This document shows, one piece after another, positions 37,560 to 48,373 of a stretch of DNA of 64,000 nucleotides. The translations under genes were made by a program, and so were the position numbers. Position 1 is the stretch's first letter. Each line of letters opens with the position of its first letter. The notes under the pieces were generated by a model. It was not told the origin of the DNA. It saw nothing but the letters and a program-made list of their open reading frames with translations, and did not search any database. The DNA comes from Halanaerobium kushneri (GTDB lineage Bacteria; Bacillota; Halanaerobiia; Halanaerobiales; Halanaerobiaceae): NCBI RefSeq assembly GCF_900156285.1, contig NZ_FTNC01000015.1, positions 1 to 64,000 on the forward strand. The letters are read 5' to 3'.

Positions 37560-38417
37560 ATGATGAGAACTGAAAAAGAAGTCTTATCTCAGTTTCAAAA
37601 ATGGGCCAGAAATAATGAATTGATTAGAGCAGCAGTTTTAACAAGTTCTAGGGTCAAATCTGATTCAGAAACTGATTTTTTATCTGACTATGATATTGAG
37701 CTCTATGTATCTGATTTAAGCAGCTTTAAAAAAAATGACGAATGGCTTAAAGAGTTTGGATCAATTATGGTCCGCTGGCCTTTTAAGCCTCGTTCGACAG
37801 GATTTAAAAATGCTTCCTGGCTAACTCGGCTTGTTTTATTCAATGATGGGGTCAGGATTGATTTTCAGATTACAGATCAGCTGGAAATAGAAGAAGATGT
37901 TTATGACAGCGGCTATAAGGTTTTGCTAGATAAAGATGGAATAACTGAAGGGCTTTTGGAACCAAGTTATTCAGAGTATATTATAAACAAACCTGAACAA
38001 TTAGAATATGAAACTCTGGTAAATGAGTTCTGGTGGGATGCTTATTATGTTCCCAAATATCTCTGGAGAGAACAGCTTCCTTTTGCTAAATACATGCTTG
38101 ATTATTCACTCAGATATTCTTTTCTACATAAGGTTATTGAGTGGCATATCGGTCTAAAAAATGACTGGTCAGTAGAAACTGGGATTTTTGGCAAAAGGTT
38201 TAAGGAATATTTAGATGACGAACTATGGGCAGAATGGAAAAAAACATATGCTGGTGCTGATCTTGAAGAAAACTGGGAAGCATTTTTTAAGATGATTGAT
38301 TTTTTTAGAAGACTTGCAAAAAATATTGCTAAAAAGTTAGGTTACACTTATCCAGAGGAGGTAGATAAACGGGTTAGTAATTTTTGTAGGGAAATACGAG
38401 AAAAGAAAAGGGAGTGA
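37560..38417 (+). CDS. ANT(6)-like aminoglycoside adenylyltransferase homologue
   Basis: A 285-residue protein matching the AadK/ANT(6) streptomycin adenylyltransferase family: RAAVLTSSRVKSDS, the nucleotidyltransferase acid pair in SDYDIELY (Asp42/Asp44 counted from the second Met), VRIDFQITD and the C-terminal helical substrate domain (EFWWDAYYVPKYLWREQLPFA). Whether it confers resistance is unknown; chromosomal homologues may have other roles. It overlaps the next gene by 4 bases. Confidence 0.88.
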   Translation: MMRTEKEVLSQFQKWARNNELIRAAVLTSSRVKSDSETDFLSDYDIELYVSDLSSFKKNDEWLKEFGSIMVRWPFKPRSTGFKNASWLTRLVLFNDGVRIDFQITDQLEIEEDVYDSGYKVLLDKDGITEGLLEPSYSEYIINKPEQLEYETLVNEFWWDAYYVPKYLWREQLPFAKYMLDYSLRYSFLHKVIEWHIGLKNDWSVETGIFGKRFKEYLDDELWAEWKKTYAGADLEENWEAFFKMIDFFRRLAKNIAKKLGYTYPEEVDKRVSNFCREIREKKRE

Positions 38418-39305
38418 AGACTTTGATAAACTTGAGAAGGTATAAGCTTTTAGCTGATTTTGAAAAGGTAAGTCAATTTTTAGATGATAACTATAATTTA
38501 AAGACTCTAAATAGTTATCTCTTAAGACAGTTTTTTGAGTATGCTCATACTCATCCTTATTTTAATTATAAGAAAACTCATCATTTTGGTCTCTGGGAAG
38601 ATGGAGATAAACTTGTTGCTTTAGCATGTTATGAGATGGAGCCTGGCGAATGTTTTTTAAGTGTGAGAGAAGGATATAATCATCTATTAGCTGAGATGAT
38701 TGATTATGCAGAAGAAGAATTAGCTGCTTTGACTGATAATCAGAAAAAATTAAATGTCTGGACTACAGATAGCGAAAAGAAAATAAGAGAGCTTCTATCA
38801 GAAAAAGGTTATAAAAAAATATACACTGAACCTGTCACTATCTTTTCTTATGAAAAGGATTTTATTGAGCTTGATCTGCCAGCAGGTTATTCAATGTTTT
38901 CATTAGAAGAAGAAAATAACATAAAAAAGATACATTCATGTCTCTGGAAGGGATTTAATCATGGACCTGAACCAGATAATAATTATGATGGGAGGCTGTT
39001 GATGCAGAGTGGACCCAATTTCAGAAAGGATTTAACTACAGTTATTAAATCACCTGATGGTGAATATGTCTGTTATGCAGGAATGTGGTTTGATAGTCAG
39101 AATAAATATGCTTATTTAGAACCCCTGGCAACAGTACCTGAACACAGGAGAAAAGGACTGGCAACAATTGCACTTACTGAAGCAATGAAAAAAAACCAAA
39201 AAATTGGGCGCTAAATATTGTTTTGGTGGAATTTCTGATTTTCATCAAGCAATCGGTTTCGAAACTATTTGTCTAAGAGAAAAATGGGAAAAGATTTTGA
39301 AATGA
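38414..39305 (+). pseudogene. GNAT acetyltransferase split by a +1 change in an A8 run
   Basis: The frame from GTG 38414 (TTG 38423 is an alternative start) encodes a two-part GNAT protein. It ends at 39214 with the odd tail MKKNQKIGR just inside the acetyl-CoA motif EHRRKGLATIALTEAM. Reading the A8 run (39188-39195) as A7 continues the family sequence as KKLGAKYCFGGISDFHQAIG to a stop at 39305. So a one-base insertion interrupts an otherwise complete gene. It may be a fresh mutation, transcriptional slippage or a sequence error. Confidence 0.8.
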
Positions 39306-39314
39306 GGTTAAAAG

Positions 39315-40334
39315 ATGGAATCTGATTTAATTAATAGATTCAGCGGGACAGCAGAAGAAATTGGTATTTTAATTGGTAAATCTATTGGGGGCAAAAAATT
39401 CCTGAATAATATTTCGAAAATGATTGAAGCGGTTAATAATAGTTATGGAATAAATTATAAAAAACTTAAAAATGAATCAATGTTCTGGTTTGAAAATTTA
39501 CCTGAAGATTATCAAAAAGAATTGGAGGGCATTTCCCGGGGAGCAAATTTTCCAATAGAAAAAATAGCTCAGTGGTATTTTAGCAGTATGTGTACAGATA
39601 ATGGTTGTACAAGTTTTATTACTAAAACTAAAGATTCTTGCTGGATAGGTAGAAATAATGATTATTTGCTACCAGAATCATGGGGCCATATAAATATTAT
39701 TGAAGTGGATAACAAAATTCCAGTTATGCTATTTGGTTTAGAGGGGGATATATTTTCGGGGACAGGTTTTAATAAAGAAAAATTATGGATTCACTATAAT
39801 CACTTACCTGTCTGGGATATTCCTCTGGAGTATAGAAAGAAACTTTCTCCATTTGTTTTTATAAGAAAAGCACTGGAAAGCTGTAAATCAGTTGATGAAG
39901 TAGAAAGGTTGCTGCAGAATACGGTTAGAGATGGTGGAATGAATTTATTTGTTGTTGATGGAAAAAACAATCAAAGCTCTGTTTTTGAATGCAGTTCTCA
40001 GCTTTATAAAAAAAGGAGAATAGAAAGCTCATATATTGCAGGAGCCAATCACTATTCTGAAATCAAGGTGCCTGCTGGCTGTAATTTTGATTTTAAAGAT
40101 TCAATTAAAAGACAGGAAAAAGTTGAAAATCTTTTGTTAAAAAATAAGAAAGGCTTATCTCTCCAGAAAATGATAGATATTTTATCCAATTCTGAGGTTG
40201 AACAAAATAACAATTTATCAGGTACTGTTTATTCTAATATAGTCTGTCCAGCTGATAATTTAATTTATTTTGCCTATGATGGATTTCCAGCTGCAAGTAA
40301 GGGTAACTGGCAAAAAATCGAATGGGAATGGTAA
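39315..40334 (+). CDS. C45-type (acyl-CoA:6-APA acyltransferase-like) Ntn hydrolase
   Basis: A 339-residue protein of the C45 peptidase/isopenicillin-N acyltransferase-like family. The motif NGCTSF gives a probable N-terminal nucleophile Cys98 after self-cleavage, then CWIGRNNDYLLPE, MLFGLEGDIFSGTGFN and FVVDGKNNQSSVFEC. Relatives hydrolyse amides such as carcinine or acylated amino acids. The substrate is unknown. ATG 39315 lies 9 bases after the true end of the preceding broken gene. Confidence 0.85.
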   Translation: MESDLINRFSGTAEEIGILIGKSIGGKKFLNNISKMIEAVNNSYGINYKKLKNESMFWFENLPEDYQKELEGISRGANFPIEKIAQWYFSSMCTDNGCTSFITKTKDSCWIGRNNDYLLPESWGHINIIEVDNKIPVMLFGLEGDIFSGTGFNKEKLWIHYNHLPVWDIPLEYRKKLSPFVFIRKALESCKSVDEVERLLQNTVRDGGMNLFVVDGKNNQSSVFECSSQLYKKRRIESSYIAGANHYSEIKVPAGCNFDFKDSIKRQEKVENLLLKNKKGLSLQKMIDILSNSEVEQNNNLSGTVYSNIVCPADNLIYFAYDGFPAASKGNWQKIEWEW

Positions 40335-40351
40335 TAGTTAGGAGTGAGAAT

Positions 40352-41029
40352 ATGAGTGCAGTAATACAGCAGATAGAAATGGGAAAAGCAAATTCTTATT
40401 TAATAGAAGCAAAAAACGGATATATTTTAGTTGATGCAGGGATGCCGGATCAGGTAGATATAGTAAGCAGGTTTTTATCTAAAAAGAATGCTGATCTAGA
40501 AGATATCATTTTAATTATAATAACCCATGTTCATTATGATCATGTAGGCAGTTTAGCAGCTCTGAAGGAAAAAACAAATGCTGAGGTACTGGTTCATAAA
40601 AAAGAAAAAGAACTATTAGAAAATGGTAAAACTGAATTTCCTGAAGGAACAGTATTTATATCAAAGATAATTTCTAAGCTGAGCAATTTGATTTCAGAAA
40701 GTAAGTTTAAAGCAGTGACACCGGATATTACAGTTGATGATTATTATGATTTAAAGCAGTATGGAATCAAAGGGGAGATTATCCATACTCCCGGACATAC
40801 AGGCGGTTCTATAAGTGTTATAATAAATGGAGAAGATATAATTTGTGGAGATACTTTATTTAACTTTATGCCTCACTCTGTATATCCTCCATTTGCCAAT
40901 AATAAAGATGAGTTAATAGAAAGCTGGCAAAAAATAAAAAGCTACAACTGTAAAAGATTTTATCCCGGCCACGGCAGTATTTTTACAGAAGAAAAATTTA
41001 TCAAAACTCTGGAGAAAAAGTTGCAGTAG
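40352..41029 (+). CDS. Metallo-beta-lactamase-fold hydrolase
   Basis: A 225-residue MBL-fold enzyme with a full dinuclear zinc site: THVHYDHVG (His59, His61, Asp63, His64), HTPGHTGGS, CGDTLF and PGHGS. Glyoxalase II-like small hydrolases have this layout; the substrate is unknown. Start ATG 40352, behind TAGGAG, rather than the overlapping upstream ATG. Confidence 0.93.
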   Translation: MSAVIQQIEMGKANSYLIEAKNGYILVDAGMPDQVDIVSRFLSKKNADLEDIILIIITHVHYDHVGSLAALKEKTNAEVLVHKKEKELLENGKTEFPEGTVFISKIISKLSNLISESKFKAVTPDITVDDYYDLKQYGIKGEIIHTPGHTGGSISVIINGEDIICGDTLFNFMPHSVYPPFANNKDELIESWQKIKSYNCKRFYPGHGSIFTEEKFIKTLEKKLQ

Positions 41030-41140
41030 ATAAATTAAATGATAAAAAATATTTTCACTTCGAAGTTCGCTCTGGAAATATCAAAATAAGAGTTGGAAGA
41101 TGATTTTTCATCAGGGGACAATAATAGGTGAGGAAGTAAT

Positions 41141-41209
41141 ATGAATAGAAAATTAGCGTATAAAATAGCAGATGAATATTTTGTTTCATGGTTAGAACAG
41201 GATATATAA
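41141..41209 (+). pseudogene. 22-codon gene remnant
   Basis: ATG 41141 behind GAGGAAG opens MNRKLAYKIADEYFVSWLEQ and stops after 22 codons. It looks like the start of a longer protein whose remainder is lost. A SnoaL/NTF2-like origin is a guess from the EYFVSWLEQDI pattern. Confidence 0.35.
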
Positions 41210-41240
41210 AAATTATTGTGATAAAAGGGAGAGAATAATT

Positions 41241-41498
41241 ATGAAAGAAGATGATCTAATAAAGAAATATGGTTTAACTGAAGAAGATAAAGAAAAATTG
41301 CTTGAAGAAATAAAGTATTATTTTGAAGTAGAACGAGATGAAAAGCTTGGAATTATAGCTTCTGAAAAAATACTAGAATTCTTTTTAGAAACAATGGGAG
41401 ATTATGTTTATAATAGAGCCCTTGATAATACAAAACAGTGGTATGACCAGCGGATGGAAAATTTGGAATCCGATTTTTTTGCACTTTATAAATATTAG
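41241..41498 (+). CDS. DUF2164 family protein
   Basis: An 85-residue helical protein with the DUF2164 pattern: LTEEDKEKLLEEIKYYFEVER, DEKLGIIASEKILEFFLE and DYVYNRALDNTKQW. Function unknown. ATG 41241 follows AGGGAGAG. Confidence 0.85.
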   Translation: MKEDDLIKKYGLTEEDKEKLLEEIKYYFEVERDEKLGIIASEKILEFFLETMGDYVYNRALDNTKQWYDQRMENLESDFFALYKY

Positions 41499-41524
41499 GT
41501 TTATCCCTGGAGGGGGGTATATTG

Positions 41525-41971
41525 ATGGATTTTAAATTTGTAGCTATTAATTTAGAATATCTAGCAGAAATAAAAGACTGGAAATATGATGGATTTATTA
41601 AAAAAATTTATGTAGATCCTTATTTTGAAAATACTGATGAAAATAATATTGAATTAAGGGGTCCAGGCGGTTGTATAGGTTTTGTAGCCTTAACTCAAAA
41701 TAAATTGGCAGGATTATTTGAATATTATTTTAGGGGAGAAATTATAGAAATTGGTCTTGCTTTAAACCCTGCTTTTGTCGGAAAAGGATATGGAAAAGAT
41801 TTTGTAGAACAGGGAATAGCTTTTGGAATAGAATATTTTGCTTATCAGGAAGAATATATTAAGCTGAATGTAAATATTAATAACAAAGCTGCAAGAAGAG
41901 TTTATAAAAAGGCTGGATTTAAAGAATATGATAGAGAAGATGATTCAATAGAAATGAGAAAATATATCTGA
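41525..41971 (+). CDS. GNAT-family N-acetyltransferase
   Basis: A 148-residue acetyltransferase of the RimJ/RimL-like type: IEIGLALNPAFVGKGYGKDF (acetyl-CoA loop GKGYGKD), YIKLNVNINNKAARRVYKKAGF and a short C-terminal strand. Acceptor unknown. ATG 41525 is preferred over TTG 41522 by spacing to GGAGGGG. Confidence 0.9.
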   Translation: MDFKFVAINLEYLAEIKDWKYDGFIKKIYVDPYFENTDENNIELRGPGGCIGFVALTQNKLAGLFEYYFRGEIIEIGLALNPAFVGKGYGKDFVEQGIAFGIEYFAYQEEYIKLNVNINNKAARRVYKKAGFKEYDREDDSIEMRKYI

Positions 41972-42039
41972 ACTAATCTAAAAAATAGATAAAATTTTTA
42001 AAAATAAAGTTTTATATTAAAATAATCTGGAGGTAGGAA

Positions 42040-42537
42040 ATGGACTTTACAATTGATGAAATGAAAAATAGTGACTGGGAAGATGTAAAAAGAATATATA
42101 TTCAGGGTATCAAAACAGGAAATTCAACTTTTGAAACTGAAGCTCCTGACTGGGAGAATTGGGATCAGGGACATATTAAAGAATGCCGTTTAGTTGCCAG
42201 AAGCAGCGGCAGCGTAATCGGCTGGGCTGCCTTAAGCCCTATTTCTAGCAGGTGTGTTTATCGAGGAGTTGCAGAATTAAGTATTTATATTGACCAGGAT
42301 TACAGAGGAAACGGAATTGGAAAGACTTTATTAAAAGAAATAATTAAATTATCTGAAGAAGAGGGTTTCTGGACTCTGCAGTCTGGAATTTTTGTTGAAA
42401 ATAAAGCCAGTCTCAAACTTCATAAAAAGTTCGAATTTAGAGAAGTTGGTGTCCGGGAAAAGATTGGTAAAATGAAAAATGGTTCCTGGAGAGATGTTGC
42501 TTTACTGGAAAGAAGAAGTAAAAAAGTGGGAACCTAA
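42040..42537 (+). CDS. Phosphinothricin-type GNAT acetyltransferase
   Basis: A 165-residue protein of the Pat/YncA group: IYIQGIKTGNSTFETEAPDW, VIGWAALSPISSRCVYRGVAE, DQDYRGNGIGKTLL and VENKASLKLHKKFEFREVG. Homologues acetylate phosphinothricin, methionine sulfone or similar amino-acid analogues. ATG 42040 follows GGAGGT. Confidence 0.92.
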   Translation: MDFTIDEMKNSDWEDVKRIYIQGIKTGNSTFETEAPDWENWDQGHIKECRLVARSSGSVIGWAALSPISSRCVYRGVAELSIYIDQDYRGNGIGKTLLKEIIKLSEEEGFWTLQSGIFVENKASLKLHKKFEFREVGVREKIGKMKNGSWRDVALLERRSKKVGT

Positions 42538-42632
42538 TCGTTATTATTTGCTAAGAAATACTTTCTAAATTTTAAAAAATTAGAAAAATATATTGATTGA
42601 TAATAATATTTTGAATATATTTAATTTTTCTA

Positions 42633-42661
42633 TTGACAAATAATTAAGTAATTGTTATAAT
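42633..42661 (+). promoter_or_regulatory. Perfect consensus promoter with no gene behind it
   Basis: TTGACA (42633-42638), 17-bp spacer, TATAAT (42656-42661). It is among the best promoters in the window, yet it leads into a noncoding, highly self-complementary stretch. Confidence 0.85.
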
Positions 42662-42667
42662 TATCTA

Positions 42668-42930
42668 CAGTGAAATTATAGGGGGAGAAGTTTGATGAAA
42701 GTGCGTTTATTAATTTAATCAGTCAACTGAATATTTTGTACTTCTTTAAAATTTTAAAATTAATTCCTGGGGATTTTTCTGTCCAATTTTAAAATATCCT
42801 TAAGGAGTGAATTTTAAAGAGTACAGTTAAATTAATAAACTCTAGTATAATAGTAAATATTAAATATAGATATATTATATATAGCATATTATTGGATACT
42901 ATGGGATTATTGCCCATAGTTTTTAATTTT
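42668..42930 (+). ncRNA. Candidate structured RNA with terminator
   Basis: From the predicted start near 42668, the transcript contains GTTTATTAATTTAA (42705-42718), which is exactly complementary to 42827-42840. Inside, GTACTTCTTTAAAATT (42738-42753) pairs with 42809-42824 except for one bulge. This closes a rod of about 136 nucleotides with a large 5'-side bubble. The hairpin ACTATGGG/CCCATAGT plus T-run (42898-42925) ends it. The only open frame is a seven-codon MKVRLLI peptide behind GGGGGAG. I recognise no known RNA family; a 6S-like role or a mobile-element remnant are alternatives. Confidence 0.55.
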
Positions 42931-43039
42931 TATAATATAAATGATTTTTACTAGCATTTAAAATTAACTTTGTATTTAGAATTTTGAAAAATCACCTTTA
43001 TTAATGGGATTTTTATATTAAATTATAAATATATCAATT

Positions 43040-43075
43040 AAGCCATGGGTTTATTAACTAGCCCATGGCTTTTTT
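43040..43075 (+). terminator. Second terminator in the 42.6-43.3 kb gap
   Basis: AAGCCATGGG pairs with CCCATGGCTT, followed by a T-run. No coding gene lies between it and the hairpin at 42898. Confidence 0.85.
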
Positions 43076-43108
43076 ATGTTTAAATTTAAAAGAATGGGGG
43101 GAAATAAA

Positions 43109-43168
43109 ATGGATTATACACTGGTACTTAAAAATGGGAAAAGTTTAAAAGAGGTATTTAAATTCTAG
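43109..43168 (+). pseudogene. 19-codon frame, probable gene remnant before speD
   Basis: ATG 43109 behind GGGGGG opens MDYTLVLKNGKSLKEVFKF and then stops. A second ribosome site (GGGGGCGG) and a ten-codon frame (MIIIIEGKLK) follow at 43201, and the downstream out-of-frame sequence KIVEIEITTEIMTLNLRI looks protein-like. This is probably a short decayed gene or leader peptides. Confidence 0.35.
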
Positions 43169-43306
43169 GAGATTTTAATTATTAAAAGGGGGCGGTCATT
43201 ATGATTATAATAATAGAGGGAAAATTAAAATAGTTGAAATAGAGATAACGACTGAAATAATGACTTTGAATTTACGAATTAATACTTGAATGGTGAGGTA
43301 ATATAT

Positions 43307-43705
43307 ATGATAAAAACTAAAAAAGAGATTTTAGGAAAACATATTGTTCTTGAAATCAGTGAATGTAATAATAAAAAACTGAATGATGTTGAATTTGTTG
43401 AAAAAATAATGGTTAAAGCAGCTCTGACTGCGGGATTAGAGATTAGTGATGTAGTATTTAATCAGTTCAAATCTCAAGGGGTAACAGGAGTAGTCATGAT
43501 AGCAGAATCTCATCTGACTATTCATACCTGGCCTGAACTGGGATATGCGGCAGTTGATTTATTTACCTGCAGTCAAAGTTTTAATACTTTTGCTGCTGTA
43601 GATCTAATTAAAGAGAAATTTGAAGCAAAAAGAACTGAAGTTGAAGAAATTAAAAGGGGAACTATAAAAGAGAATAAATTAAGTAGTTTAATTCATTTTT
43701 GCTAA
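43307..43705 (+). CDS. speD: S-adenosylmethionine decarboxylase (SpeD) proenzyme
   Basis: A 132-residue pyruvoyl enzyme precursor. The self-processing site is Glu67-Ser68 in AESHLTIHTWPELGYAAVDL, with His73 and Cys88 at the +5 and +20 positions found in Thermotoga maritima AdoMetDC. It makes decarboxylated SAM for spermidine synthesis. No speE is nearby, and some SpeD homologues have become ornithine/arginine decarboxylases, so substrate is not certain. Start ATG 43307 behind GGTGAGGT. Confidence 0.9.
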   Translation: MIKTKKEILGKHIVLEISECNNKKLNDVEFVEKIMVKAALTAGLEISDVVFNQFKSQGVTGVVMIAESHLTIHTWPELGYAAVDLFTCSQSFNTFAAVDLIKEKFEAKRTEVEEIKRGTIKENKLSSLIHFC

Positions 43706-43756
43706 GTTAGAGCAGCTTTGAATAACTTAATTTATATTAAATAGGAGGAAATAAGA

Positions 43757-44788
43757 TTGAATTTAATAGATTTAGGTTGGAATCAGGATTTTGAAGATAA
43801 ACTAGCCCAAACTAAAAAACGGGATGATTTTCAAATAGCTCGAGTAGCTATAGAATATAAAGGAATGTACAAGTTATATACTGAAGCAGGAGAGGTTTTA
43901 GCTGAGGTAAAGGGTAAGATGCGCTATAATAATAACTTTCCTGCAGTAGGAGACTGGGTAGTAATAGATCTGCAGGATAATGGAGCAAGAGCAATTATCC
44001 ATGATATACTGCCCAGAAAAAGTAAATTTTCACGCAAGGTTGCAGGAGATGACACTAAAGAACAGATAGTAGCTGCCAATATTGATACGATATTTATTGT
44101 TACTTCCTTGAACCAGGATTTTAATTTAAGAAGACTGGAAAGATATTTAACAATTGCCTGGGATAGTGGTGCTAAACCGGTAATAGTGTTGAGTAAGGCG
44201 GATTTATGTGAAGATCCGGAGGCAAAAAAAGTTGAAGTGGAAACTGTAGCTTTTGGAGTTCCAATTCATATAGTTAGTTCACTAAGTGGAGAAGGACTGA
44301 ATGAACTGGAAGAATATTTAGAGACTGGATATACAGCAGCTTTATTAGGATCTTCTGGAGTTGGAAAATCCACGATTATTAATCAGCTGATGGGCAGCGA
44401 AAAAATGGAGGTTAATGAGATTAGAGTCAGTGATGGTAGAGGTAAGCATACTACAACTCACCGGGAATTAATTGTTCTGGAAACAGGAGGTATTGTAATA
44501 GATACTCCCGGGATGAGGGAAATTCAGCTCTGGGATGGAAGTGAGGGAATCAAAGAGAGTTTTGAAGATATAGAAGCTCTGGCCCAGAGATGTAAATTTA
44601 ATGACTGTCAGCATGATTCAGAACCGGGCTGTGCTGTTAAAAAAGCAATAGAAGAGGGAGAATTAACTGAGGAGAGATTGGAAAGCTATAGAAAATTAGA
44701 AAGAGAATTATTATTTATTGAACGCAAGAAAAAATATGGTACAGTACGAGCTGCTAAATTAATGAATAAAGACATATTTGGTTTTTAA
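43757..44788 (+). CDS. rsgA: Ribosome small-subunit biogenesis GTPase RsgA
   Basis: A 343-residue circularly permuted GTPase. An N-terminal OB domain (FPAVGDWVVIDL) is followed by LSKADL (G4) before GSSGVGKST (G1) and DTPGMRE (G3), then the zinc finger RCKFNDCQHDSEPGC. It acts in 30S maturation. TTG 43757 is the start, behind AGGAGGAA. Confidence 0.97.
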   Translation: MNLIDLGWNQDFEDKLAQTKKRDDFQIARVAIEYKGMYKLYTEAGEVLAEVKGKMRYNNNFPAVGDWVVIDLQDNGARAIIHDILPRKSKFSRKVAGDDTKEQIVAANIDTIFIVTSLNQDFNLRRLERYLTIAWDSGAKPVIVLSKADLCEDPEAKKVEVETVAFGVPIHIVSSLSGEGLNELEEYLETGYTAALLGSSGVGKSTIINQLMGSEKMEVNEIRVSDGRGKHTTTHRELIVLETGGIVIDTPGMREIQLWDGSEGIKESFEDIEALAQRCKFNDCQHDSEPGCAVKKAIEEGELTEERLESYRKLERELLFIERKKKYGTVRAAKLMNKDIFGF

Positions 44789-44800
44789 ACTTATAAGAAA

Positions 44801-44840
44801 AATCCTTCAAAATTTATTAAATTATTTTGGAGGATTTTTT
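44801..44840 (+). terminator. Terminator after rsgA
   Basis: AATCCTTCAAAAT pairs with ATTTTGGAGGATT (one mismatch), followed by T-run. The next 159 bases show no gene. Confidence 0.85.
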
Positions 44841-44999
44841 ACTTTATAATGGAAATATATCTTAGATTGAAAAATTGAAAAAATAAGTATTTGATAGTTT
44901 AGTATTGCTGCTAAATAATTATTCATTAAATTAAATTTATAAAGTGAAAGCTAAAAATATAATTATAAAGACAGACTTCAAGATAAGGATAGTGATTAA

Positions 45000-45513
45000 A
45001 TGAGTAAAAAAGCAGAAAAAATGGATAATTTATTTGATGAAAGAGCAAATTCCTATGATGAACATATGAGAAACAATGTTGTTAATTTTGAAGAATTTTA
45101 TAAAAGTATTGCCAGCCCAATTAGCAGAACAGATTAAAATAATTAATGATTCATATTTAACTGTAGATTTGCATCAAAAGGAATTTGATTATGTAATATC
45201 AGTAATGACTTTTCATCATTTATTATACAGTTCAAAAAAGAATTTATATACTAAAATTTGCAAATCGTTAAAAGTTGGTGGTAAATATATTGAAGGAGAT
45301 TATATAGTTTCTGAAGAAAAAGAAAAGATTTTATTAGAAAAGTTTGAGTTAAGCAATCAAAATAAAAGCATAGAGGATGGCTTTTTTCATATTGATATTC
45401 CATTCTCACTAAAAACAGAAAAAGAACTGTTAAATGAAGCTGGTTTCCATAATTTTAATTTGATTTTTAAAAAAGATGAGGTAGCTGTTTATGTGCTCAG
45501 AAAGGAAGAGTAA
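45000..45513 (+). pseudogene. Methyltransferase gene missing its SAM-binding motif
   Basis: ATG 45000 opens MSKKAEKMDNLFDERANSY and continues to FEEFYKSIASPIS, the usual lead of a class I methyltransferase, then stops after 45 codons. In the next frame the protein resumes at PAQLAEQIKIINDSYL and runs through FDYVISVMTFHHLLYS to a normal C-terminus at 45513. The LDLGCGTG motif I segment between is absent, so a deletion plus frame change inactivated it. Confidence 0.85.
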
Positions 45514-45514
45514 A

Positions 45515-46582
45515 ATGAAAAAAGAAAAGTTAAACGAAATTGAAAATACGTTCAGAAAAAGAGTAAAAAAAGACTCAAAAGTTAAAAATGCTTATTTGCT
45601 GCTTCATTCTGATAAATTAAATTTTCATTTAAATATTGCAGAGGGAAAAACTGCTGATTTAGATGCAGACCCTCAACAGCCCAATTATATGGCCAGTGTT
45701 GGCAAATTGTTTACTTCAACTATTATAAGTATTTTATATGAAAGAGGAAAACTTGATTTTAATGATAAAATCAGCAGTTATTTAGATGATGATTTGTTAA
45801 GTGGACTGCATATCTATAAAGGAAAAGATTATACTGATAGTATTACTATTAAACATCTGTTAAAACAACGCTCTGGTTTATATGACGATTTTTGGCCATT
45901 ACTTGATAAAATAATTGAAGATAGCAATTTTAATATGAGTCCGCGAAAAGCTGTTATCTGGGCTAAAAACAATTTAAAATCTTATTCACCCCCTGGTAGA
46001 AAGACTAAATATACAGATACTAATTATCATATTTTAGGACTGATAATCGAAAATATAACTAAAAAACCATTTCATGAGGTACTAAAAGATGAAATTTTTC
46101 TTCCACTTGCAATGAAAAAATCATCAATGCTTCATTATTCTGAACCTCTGAAAGCATATTCCTTCCCGACTGCTCGCTTTAGTATTAACGGAAAGGTGCT
46201 TAATGATTCTAAGGCTTTTGCCGGACTTGATTTCAGTGGGGGTGGAGTTGTGGCAACTACTGAAGATTTACTTAAATTTATGCAGGCTTTAAATGCTGGT
46301 GAATTGATCAAAAAAGAAACCTTAAAGCAGATGATTAGTGATTCTAATAAATTATTTTTCGGTGTAGATTATGGCTATGGTATCTGGAAGTTTAAAACTA
46401 TTCCAATTTTAATGCCAGAAAAATATTACTGCTGGGGTTGTGTTGGGGCAACAGGAGCCTTTATGTTTTATCATCCTCAGTTAGACACATATTTAATTGG
46501 GAATTTTAATGATGTATCTTATCAGCGTAAAGGGCTTAAATTTATGATAAATGTAATAAAAAAATTATTAAAGGCGGCATAA
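45515..46582 (+). CDS. Serine hydrolase of the class C beta-lactamase fold
   Basis: A 355-residue penicillin-binding/beta-lactamase-related serine hydrolase: SVGK (Ser61-Lys64), YTDTNYHILG (Tyr-x-Asn-type motif) and a late GCVGATGAFMFYHP in place of the KTG box. No signal peptide is visible, so it is probably cytosolic, perhaps an esterase or peptidase and not an antibiotic hydrolase. ATG 45515 follows AGGAAGAG. Confidence 0.87.
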   Translation: MKKEKLNEIENTFRKRVKKDSKVKNAYLLLHSDKLNFHLNIAEGKTADLDADPQQPNYMASVGKLFTSTIISILYERGKLDFNDKISSYLDDDLLSGLHIYKGKDYTDSITIKHLLKQRSGLYDDFWPLLDKIIEDSNFNMSPRKAVIWAKNNLKSYSPPGRKTKYTDTNYHILGLIIENITKKPFHEVLKDEIFLPLAMKKSSMLHYSEPLKAYSFPTARFSINGKVLNDSKAFAGLDFSGGGVVATTEDLLKFMQALNAGELIKKETLKQMISDSNKLFFGVDYGYGIWKFKTIPILMPEKYYCWGCVGATGAFMFYHPQLDTYLIGNFNDVSYQRKGLKFMINVIKKLLKAA

Positions 46583-46792
46583 AAATAAACTTTATTGTTT
46601 AAATTATAAATTATAGATTTAAAATATAGATCTAGTCATACTTGGTTCTTTAAGAAGATTAAAAGTATTTATTTTAGAAAAAAGTTAATTTTACTGTTAT
46701 AATAGAGATATTAAGTGCTTTGTTCTTACTGAGAATTAATGTTTAAATATTTTAGCTGATAAATATATTTAATTTAAAGAAGGGAGCCGATA

Positions 46793-47233
46793 ATGAGTTA
46801 TCCAGAACCAACAGTTGGAGCAGTAATATTTAACCCTGATGACAAAATACTTCTCTGTAAATCTCACAAATGGGGTGACAAGTATATTATTCCGGGAGGA
46901 CATATTGAACTTGGAGAAAAAATGGAAGAAGCATTAAGGCGTGAAATTCTTGAAGAAACTGGTCTGGAAATATATGATATTAACCTAATCAGTATTAAAG
47001 AAAGTGTTTATAATGAGACTTTTCATGAAGAAAAACATTTTATTTTTATAGATTATATCTGCAGAACAGATTCCACCAGCGTGATTTTAAATGATGAGGC
47101 GGAAGAATATGTGTGGGTTGATTTAAACGAAGCAGATAATTACGAATTAGGTGGATTTATTAAGCCACTTTTAGATGAACTGAAAAATGGGCAGGGATCA
47201 GATTTTAAAACAGAAGTTTTTTATGGATATTAA
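46793..47233 (+). CDS. NUDIX hydrolase
   Basis: A 146-residue NUDIX enzyme with an intact box: GGHIELGEKMEEAL followed by RREILEETGL. It cleaves a nucleoside diphosphate linked to another moiety; the substrate is unknown. ATG 46793 follows AAGGGAG. Confidence 0.93.
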   Translation: MSYPEPTVGAVIFNPDDKILLCKSHKWGDKYIIPGGHIELGEKMEEALRREILEETGLEIYDINLISIKESVYNETFHEEKHFIFIDYICRTDSTSVILNDEAEEYVWVDLNEADNYELGGFIKPLLDELKNGQGSDFKTEVFYGY

Positions 47234-47335
47234 TAACTATCCACTATCCAGAGGTTAATTTAATCGTCGAAGTATACTTTAGTTATTAACTTATTGAAAA
47301 TAGATTAGAATTTTTATAAAAGAAAGGTGTTCTCA

Positions 47336-48373
47336 ATGATTAAAGCAGAGAAATTAAAAAGGGGAGATAAAATAGCAGCTGTCAGCCTTTCCTGGGGTGG
47401 AGCAGGTGATAAAAAATTTAATTATAGATATAGAATAGGAAAGAAAAGAATAGAAGATATTTTTGGCTTAGAAGTAGTTGAAATGCCAAATACATTAAAG
47501 GGTAGTGAGTATTTATATCAAAATCCAGAAGCCAGAGCTGAAGATTTGATGAACGCATTCGAAAATAAAGAAATAAAAGCAATATTTTCTAATATAGGTG
47601 GAGATGATACTTTAAGATTACTGCCATATATCGATTTTGATATCATAAAAAATAATCCTAAAATTTTTATGGGGTATTCGGATACAACTGTTAATCATTT
47701 TATGTGCTATAAGGCAGGACTGACAAGCTTTTATGGTCCGAGTATACTGGGAGAATTTGCTGAAAATGTAGAAATGCATGATTATACTGTAGAATGGCTT
47801 AAAAAATCACTGTTTACAGACAGTGCTCCTGGTAAAATTTATCCCAGTCAAAACTGGACTTCTCAATTTTTAGCCTGGGATGATCAGGAAAATAGCCAAA
47901 TAAAAAGAAAAATGGCCGAAAACCGAAAAGGATATGAACTTCTGCAGGGAGAAGGGAAAGTTAAAGGTGGATTAATTGGGGGCTGTATAGAAGTGCTGGA
48001 CTGGTTAAGAGGAACTGTTCTCTGGCCTGAACTCGATGAGTGGGAAGATAAGATACTTTTTTTAGAAAGTAGTGAAGATAAACCATCTCCCGACTATATA
48101 CGCTGGTACCTGAGAGCAATGGCGGCTCAGGGAGTTTTTGATAAAATTAAAGCATTAATTATAGCAAAGCCCTATGCTGAAAAATATTATGAAGAATATA
48201 AAGTAGAATATTTAAGAGTTATTCGAGATGAAGCTGGACGGGATGATTTACCGATTCTTTATAATCTAAACTTCGGCCATACTGCTCCAATGTGTATTTT
48301 ACCGTATGGAGTAGAAGCAGAAATAAACTGTTCTGATAGGTCTTTTGCAATAACTGAATCAGGAACTGTTTAA
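47336..48373 (+). CDS. S66 peptidase, MccF/LD-carboxypeptidase-like
   Basis: A 345-residue S66 family protein: LKRGDKIAAVSLSWGG, SNIGGDDTLRLLPYID and the nucleophile Ser115 in GYSDTTVNHF, then GGCIEVLDWLRGT and GHTAPMCILPYG. The subgroup resembles microcin C7 self-immunity protein MccF more than muramoyl LD-carboxypeptidase. It may cleave peptidyl-nucleotide toxins or a peptidoglycan peptide. ATG 47336. Confidence 0.9.
   Translation: MIKAEKLKRGDKIAAVSLSWGGAGDKKFNYRYRIGKKRIEDIFGLEVVEMPNTLKGSEYLYQNPEARAEDLMNAFENKEIKAIFSNIGGDDTLRLLPYIDFDIIKNNPKIFMGYSDTTVNHFMCYKAGLTSFYGPSILGEFAENVEMHDYTVEWLKKSLFTDSAPGKIYPSQNWTSQFLAWDDQENSQIKRKMAENRKGYELLQGEGKVKGGLIGGCIEVLDWLRGTVLWPELDEWEDKILFLESSEDKPSPDYIRWYLRAMAAQGVFDKIKALIIAKPYAEKYYEEYKVEYLRVIRDEAGRDDLPILYNLNFGHTAPMCILPYGVEAEINCSDRSFAITESGTV

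Follow-up and report, generated by a model that had tools for sequence, protein, structure and literature searches.

Amino-acid attenuators of the trp/ilv type combine a leader peptide with alternative RNA helices. In Listeria, the attenuator rli80 of hflXr (lmo0762) carries a 14-amino-acid leader with an RLR motif, and its target is an additional copy of a GTPase that associates with the ribosome (PMC6310831). The msrDL-msrD leader encodes the very short hydrophobic peptide MYLIFM, which ends in UAA and adjoins an intrinsic terminator; the inducers are cladinose macrolides, and the stalled ribosome obstructs the terminator (PMC10314930). Leaders of the ABC-F genes cplR, vmlR and lsaA of Gram-positive bacteria, as described in the cited part of a further study, consist of an upstream ORF (uORF) of 3–4 amino acids and a terminator (PMC10201436).

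The locus described here lies in a 64,000-nucleotide stretch of the Halanaerobium kushneri genome, hereafter the window. Very probably, in our view, the 5' leader of its speD-rsgA2 operon acts as a ribosome-mediated transcription attenuator. Its placement in the attenuator class is well supported, since a short ORF, mutually exclusive helices and a terminator precede translation-related genes.

Anatomy and distribution of the leader

The features of the leader and of the genes that follow it are these:

42633..42661, + strand: promoter TTGACA-17-TATAAT of the sigma-70/SigA type, 12/12 consensus match, with TG 5' of the -10
42680..42687, + strand: Shine-Dalgarno sequence AGGGGGAG of the leader ORF
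42695..42718, + strand: leader ORF ATGAAAGTGCGTTTATTAATTTAA, MKVRLLI-stop
42705..42718, + strand: arm A (anti-antiterminator), formed by the final codons and the stop codon of the leader ORF; exact pairing with 42827-42840, with covariation
42738..42753, + strand: 5' arm of the inner stem P2, folding with 42809-42824 with one bulge
42765..42784, + strand: apical block TCCTGGGGATTTTTCTGTCC (TCCCGGGGATTAGTGCGTCT in relatives), conserved in the alignments
42809..42824, + strand: 3' arm of P2, from the fold
42827..42842, + strand: strand B (antiterminator) TTAAATTAATAAACTC, which in thermodynamic folds of most leaders pairs with A if the leader is free and with C if A is blocked
42898..42920, + strand: terminator T1, with loop segment C1 (42903-42912, GGGATTATTG) complementary to B but for one mismatch
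43040..43071, + strand: terminator T2, with loop segment C2 (43047-43056, GGGTTTATTA) complementary to B at 10/10 positions
43109..43168, + strand: short ORF with a Shine-Dalgarno sequence, 3' of T2 (MDYTLVLKNGKSLKEVFKF-stop), possibly a second leader, read from the sequence only
43201..43233, + strand: short ORF MIIIIEGKLK-stop, from the sequence; relatives have mini-ORFs here too (MIVNQREV..., MIAIRKEV...)
43307..43705, + strand: speD, S-adenosylmethionine decarboxylase, the probable first regulated gene (TIGR03330, 142.7 bits, cut-off 75.65; PF02675)
43757..44788, + strand: rsgA2, accessory long RsgA-type GTPase, which would be the second regulated gene (PF03193, TIGR00157)

The consensus promoter, the two terminators and the exact 14-bp pairing proposed by a first-pass annotation are all present. 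Of the perfect inverted repeats in 42601-42900 it is the longest, and its length, reached by 1 of 500 dinucleotide shuffles, is unusual for this AT-rich region; only three 14-bp exact repeats with arms no more than 150 nt apart occur in the whole 64 kb. The inner stem P2 of the same annotation is real in the folds, where a P2-like stem was found in most relatives as well, but it requires one bulged base. The claim that no coding gene follows was mistaken, as a mini-ORF with a Shine-Dalgarno sequence lies at 42695-42718 and both speD and rsgA stand 3' of T2 on the same strand. The codons of this ORF are ATG AAA GTG CGT TTA TTA ATT TAA, seven before the stop, and arm A makes up its 3' half, ending together with the stop codon. 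Taken by itself, the fold energy of this RNA is not unusual (z -2.0), and the case is therefore built on comparison with relatives.

The same layout was present at 14 loci of Halanaerobiia, the window and thirteen relatives, in a set gathered by DNA search, by a covariance model built from six leaders and from the upstream regions of rsgA2 genes. All share a near-consensus promoter, a mini-ORF, helix A:B and one or two terminators at similar spacing. The promoter scores 10–12 of 12 in every leader (TTGACA in 13 of the 14), arm A lies 39–53 nt after the -10, B follows A by 66–153 nt, and segment C of the terminator loop follows B by 37–72 nt. The leader of genome G027 was recovered, weakly (E 0.006), by a wider model built without it. 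A contig pattern scan placed leaders in hosts that include Halanaerobium salsuginis, H. saccharolyticum and Orenia metallireducens; its eight matches were real only in Halanaerobium and Orenia. Model R2 gave no match in 291 genomes of Clostridia, a weak negative given the strict filters. Five IMG/VR pattern matches, which had no strand B, were attributed to chance, as were most short blastn matches (E about 1e-4), which were AT-rich.

An Rfam scan and a covariance search had been recommended with the first description. The former (Rfam 15, gathering and relaxed thresholds) found no family or riboswitch match for the leader, and the latter helped to gather the loci above, with a main helix that covaries through compensatory changes. 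The conserved layout, the covarying helix and the lack of an Rfam family bear out the idea of a new regulatory RNA, but one that is a cis-acting operon leader and not the stand-alone RNA envisaged. The only Rfam match in the window is a SAM riboswitch (RF00162, 22561-22662, 89.1 bits).

Mutually exclusive helices and the proposed switch

As A and B were chosen by eye, pair counts are biased upwards, towards a helix, and it is with this bias that 90.2% of cells over 16 pairs were paired in the leader alignment. Four pairs have changed on both sides, and the covariation score was reached by 0 of 500 shuffles; the count of double-change pairs was less striking (reached by 27 of 500). Every slid register was much worse. 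Most telling are the leaders G015, G042, G012 and G058b, as in these the end of the ORF and B have changed together. In the window, a change from ATC to ATT is synonymous and is matched by a G-to-A change in B.

Arm A is repeated in most terminator loops (GGGUUUAUUA), as GGGTTTATTA or a close variant (22 terminators), and strand B therefore has two partners, A or the terminator. The B:C pairing was stronger than that obtained with shuffled loops (mean z -3.1 over the 22 terminators, 18 of them below 0.05), T1 of G011 being one that failed this control. The leader G012 lacks GGGTTTATTA and has a different loop, GGACTATTGGTC, complementary to another part of B. An intrinsic terminator lies between the leader ORF and the first structural gene, and the helices are mutually exclusive, B pairing with A or with C; the first of them overlaps the ORF.

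When the nascent RNA was folded with a ribosome footprint blocking A, most leaders placed B on C, at one terminator or at both; G042 switched weakly, and G058a at neither terminator. B preferred C even with A free in G024 and G058b, and the folds of G025, G017, G057a and G058a gave no pairing of B with C2. For the window, the folds support a successive action of B at T1 and T2. Since B:C is less stable than most of the terminator stems, the switch, or capture, must be kinetic.

In the mechanism that we propose, ribosomes in the OFF state would translate the seven-codon ORF and leave, whereupon arm A would pair with B; with B occupied, T1 and T2 would form and transcription would stop. In the ON state, a ribosome stalled at the end of the ORF would cover A and free B. 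Strand B could then pair with segment C, which lies in the 5' half and the loop of the terminator, as it emerges, and delay the hairpin, and RNA polymerase would read into speD and rsgA2.

Probable regulated genes, leader peptide and proposed signal

Operons with rsgA2 follow 12 of the 14 leaders, directly in eight loci, as speD-rsgA2 in the window and as acetyltransferase-rsgA2 in three. One leader precedes an ABC-F gene (ribo_prot_ABC_F, 414 against a cut-off of 380) and one, in H. salsuginis, precedes bpsA-speD. A target resembling ribosome-protection genes follows 1 of the 14 (the ABC-F gene), the rest preceding rsgA2, GNAT or polyamine genes. The H. kushneri genome has a second RsgA (G000:C31) with 34% identity to RsgA2 of the window; nearly every genome of the class has another RsgA, whereas the long form occurs in no more than some twenty of 59. 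The literature searches made found neither a paper on rsgA attenuation nor a functional study of an accessory RsgA paralogue, and rsgA and its synonyms are absent from the main text of a 2010 survey of premature terminators.

Some loci depart from this arrangement. At L045 (G009), a gene recognised by eye as an IS30-type transposase lies just upstream of speD-rsgA2, at the expected site of the leader; SpeD of this locus has ETNLTIHICPE instead of ESHLTIHTWPE, and may therefore have lost self-processing. At L048 (G035:C41), a terminator with loop GGGTTTATTTAACC persists upstream of rsgA2, and the leader, A and B were not found there. L063 and L064 (G005 and G010, two genomes of the same genus) hold broken remnants of rsgA2 beside a SAM-dependent methyltransferase-like gene, which suggests repeated loss of rsgA2. 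In the window, a profile scan of part of the stretch showed a run of resistance-like families around the element (37560-48373), comprising streptomycin adenylyltransferase (PF04439), GNATs, an AAT family, a beta-lactamase family, NUDIX and an S66 peptidase.

The signal would be impaired translation, and we lean towards a ribosome-targeting inhibitor that acts in concert with the nascent peptide, which is short and hydrophobic (V-G-L-L-I-stop). SpeD and BpsA, however, are not classical resistance genes, and the same attenuator might instead sense a shortage of polyamine (or Mg2+), poor translation or termination holding the ribosome on the leader and inducing SpeD or BpsA together with RsgA2 for ribosome assembly. 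The leaders before speD-rsgA2 in the window and before bpsA-speD in H. salsuginis would join two steps of one polyamine pathway, but 12 of the 14 copies have no polyamine gene, the ABC-F and acetyltransferase targets suit inhibitors better, and the literature searched held no bacterial precedent; we consider this signal rather unlikely.

The usual form of the leader peptide is MxVGLLI-stop, the relatives having MKVGLLI, MQVGLLI (three times), MNVGLLI, MEAGLLI, MRVSLLIR, (V/M)KVSLLIG, MIVGLLIK and MKFLLI. An ORF with a start codon is present in 13 of the 14 leaders; G058b, which reads ...QGGLLV-stop without a clear start, is ambiguous, and both the start codon and the Shine-Dalgarno sequence are uncertain in G057b and G058b. 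Most relatives have a G-rich, Shine-Dalgarno-like sequence 5' of the ORF (weak in G012, G027 and G024), and the stop is TAA in 12 of the 13 clear ORFs. Codon 3 is Val in nine of the ten main-type leaders and uses all four GTN codons at a position outside the helix, which suggests selection on the peptide. Since Val, Leu and Ile make up four of the six codons after the start in most leaders, scarcity of the corresponding charged tRNAs might stall ribosomes on V-G-L-L-I, as in a branched-chain amino-acid attenuator. This is improbable, as no identified downstream gene makes or transports these amino acids, and the leaders G027 and G024 keep the parts of the switch with MKRRVF-stop and MKRTVF-stop.

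The closest copies share a conserved apical block (GGGGAUUAGUGCGUCU) to which the attenuator model assigns no task, as might be expected if the leader were a riboswitch or bound a protein, with the block as the ligand site and the ORF incidental. In G011, G015, G027 and G058b the block is poorly conserved although A, B and C are retained; the Shine-Dalgarno sequence, the start codon and the Val codons are conserved, and with no Rfam match we give such a leader little credence. A second ORF in the block (GTGCGTCTA...) showed no conservation among relatives.

We think it very unlikely that the element acts in trans, as a small RNA with its 3' end at T1 or T2. Its own strong promoter, two terminators and intergenic place would agree with this, and the OFF state of the attenuator should yield such a short transcript anyway, but the element keeps its place before rsgA2 operons, B has complements in the terminator loops, and the ORF looks translated, all of which argue against it. 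Finally, the divergent 6S RNA or mobile-element relic of the first-pass annotation, to which the long imperfect hairpin might point, can be dismissed almost entirely, as a canonical 6S RNA lies elsewhere in the genome (G000:C21:148798-148971, 100.8 bits), no 6S match occurs here to E = 10, and the leader is a single copy in its own genome by DNA search, matches nothing in plasmid and phage collections and is conserved in position 5' of rsgA2 operons.

Returning to the attenuator, we find the leaders best explained as a family of stalling-peptide attenuators, so far unlisted, that would sense translational stress. Leader-peptide attenuators mark genes needed only when ribosomes are in trouble, and their repeated occurrence before a second RsgA suggests that the accessory paralogue is an inducible ribosome defence and not a spare assembly factor. 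Judging from this regulation, and by analogy with HflXr, RsgA2 may protect or rescue ribosomes. Through SpeD and BpsA, the synthesis of polyamines would be coupled to stress on translation. More speculatively, the leaders could form a new family of MxVGLLI-stop arrest-peptide attenuators that induce accessory RsgA, for protection or rescue, along with polyamine synthesis; one antiterminator strand would disarm T1 and then T2, as both loops repeat the leader arm.

Comparison with known attenuators

Further leaders and mini-ORFs were observed near rsgA genes. A second class of mini-ORFs with good Shine-Dalgarno sequences (MIVNQREV..., MIAIRKEV..., MIVIKKEM..., MIVIDKFGV...) occupies the gap that separates the last terminator from the gene after it, even without the first leader, at 43109-43233 of the window and at L003, L005, L023, L043, L047 and L048 before rsgA2 or its operon. 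They may add a further level of control, and Clostridia have ...EV... mini-ORFs that resemble them. In Clostridia, attenuator-like leaders of other sequence, with the peptides MELSVMVIAS, MITMIMVITQ and MIACVKVIAV, were counted before 8 of 29 long RsgA genes and before 1 of 29 housekeeping genes, a crude comparison, as the housekeeping copies are mostly inside operons and the terminator finder missed some leaders visible by eye. Upstream of the long rsgA of Clostridia at L067, L085, L092, L098, L072 and L075 lies a family of leader peptides unlike that of the window, namely MELSVMVIAS, MIACVKVIAV, MITMIMVITQ, MIVLYEVIMS and MRKVYEVILN, each with a stop, and terminators follow; L067 and L098 share downstream sequence such as CTTAAAACTAAATATNGGCG.

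With attenuators of the trp/ilv type, the leader of speD-rsgA2 has the leader peptide and the alternative helices in common, but it has no biosynthetic target that matches the leader codons. As in the cplR, vmlR and lsaA leaders, a uORF is combined with a terminator, although in the cited part of that work the uORFs are shorter, the targets are others, and the MxVGLLI family is not described (PMC10201436). The msrD leader is similar in its very short hydrophobic peptide with a UAA stop and in its ABC-F target, as in one copy here; in msrD, however, the stalled ribosome obstructs the terminator, whereas here a separate strand B would swap partners (PMC10314930). The likeness to rli80 of hflXr is one of layout, with no sequence relation claimed: a small ORF overlapping the anti-antiterminator is followed by an antiterminator and a terminator, and the target is an extra copy of a GTPase (PMC6310831). 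In contrast to hflXr, the leaders described here encode 6–8 amino acids of the form V-G-L-L-I-stop, precede an RsgA and not an HflX paralogue, and often have two terminators whose loops repeat arm A.
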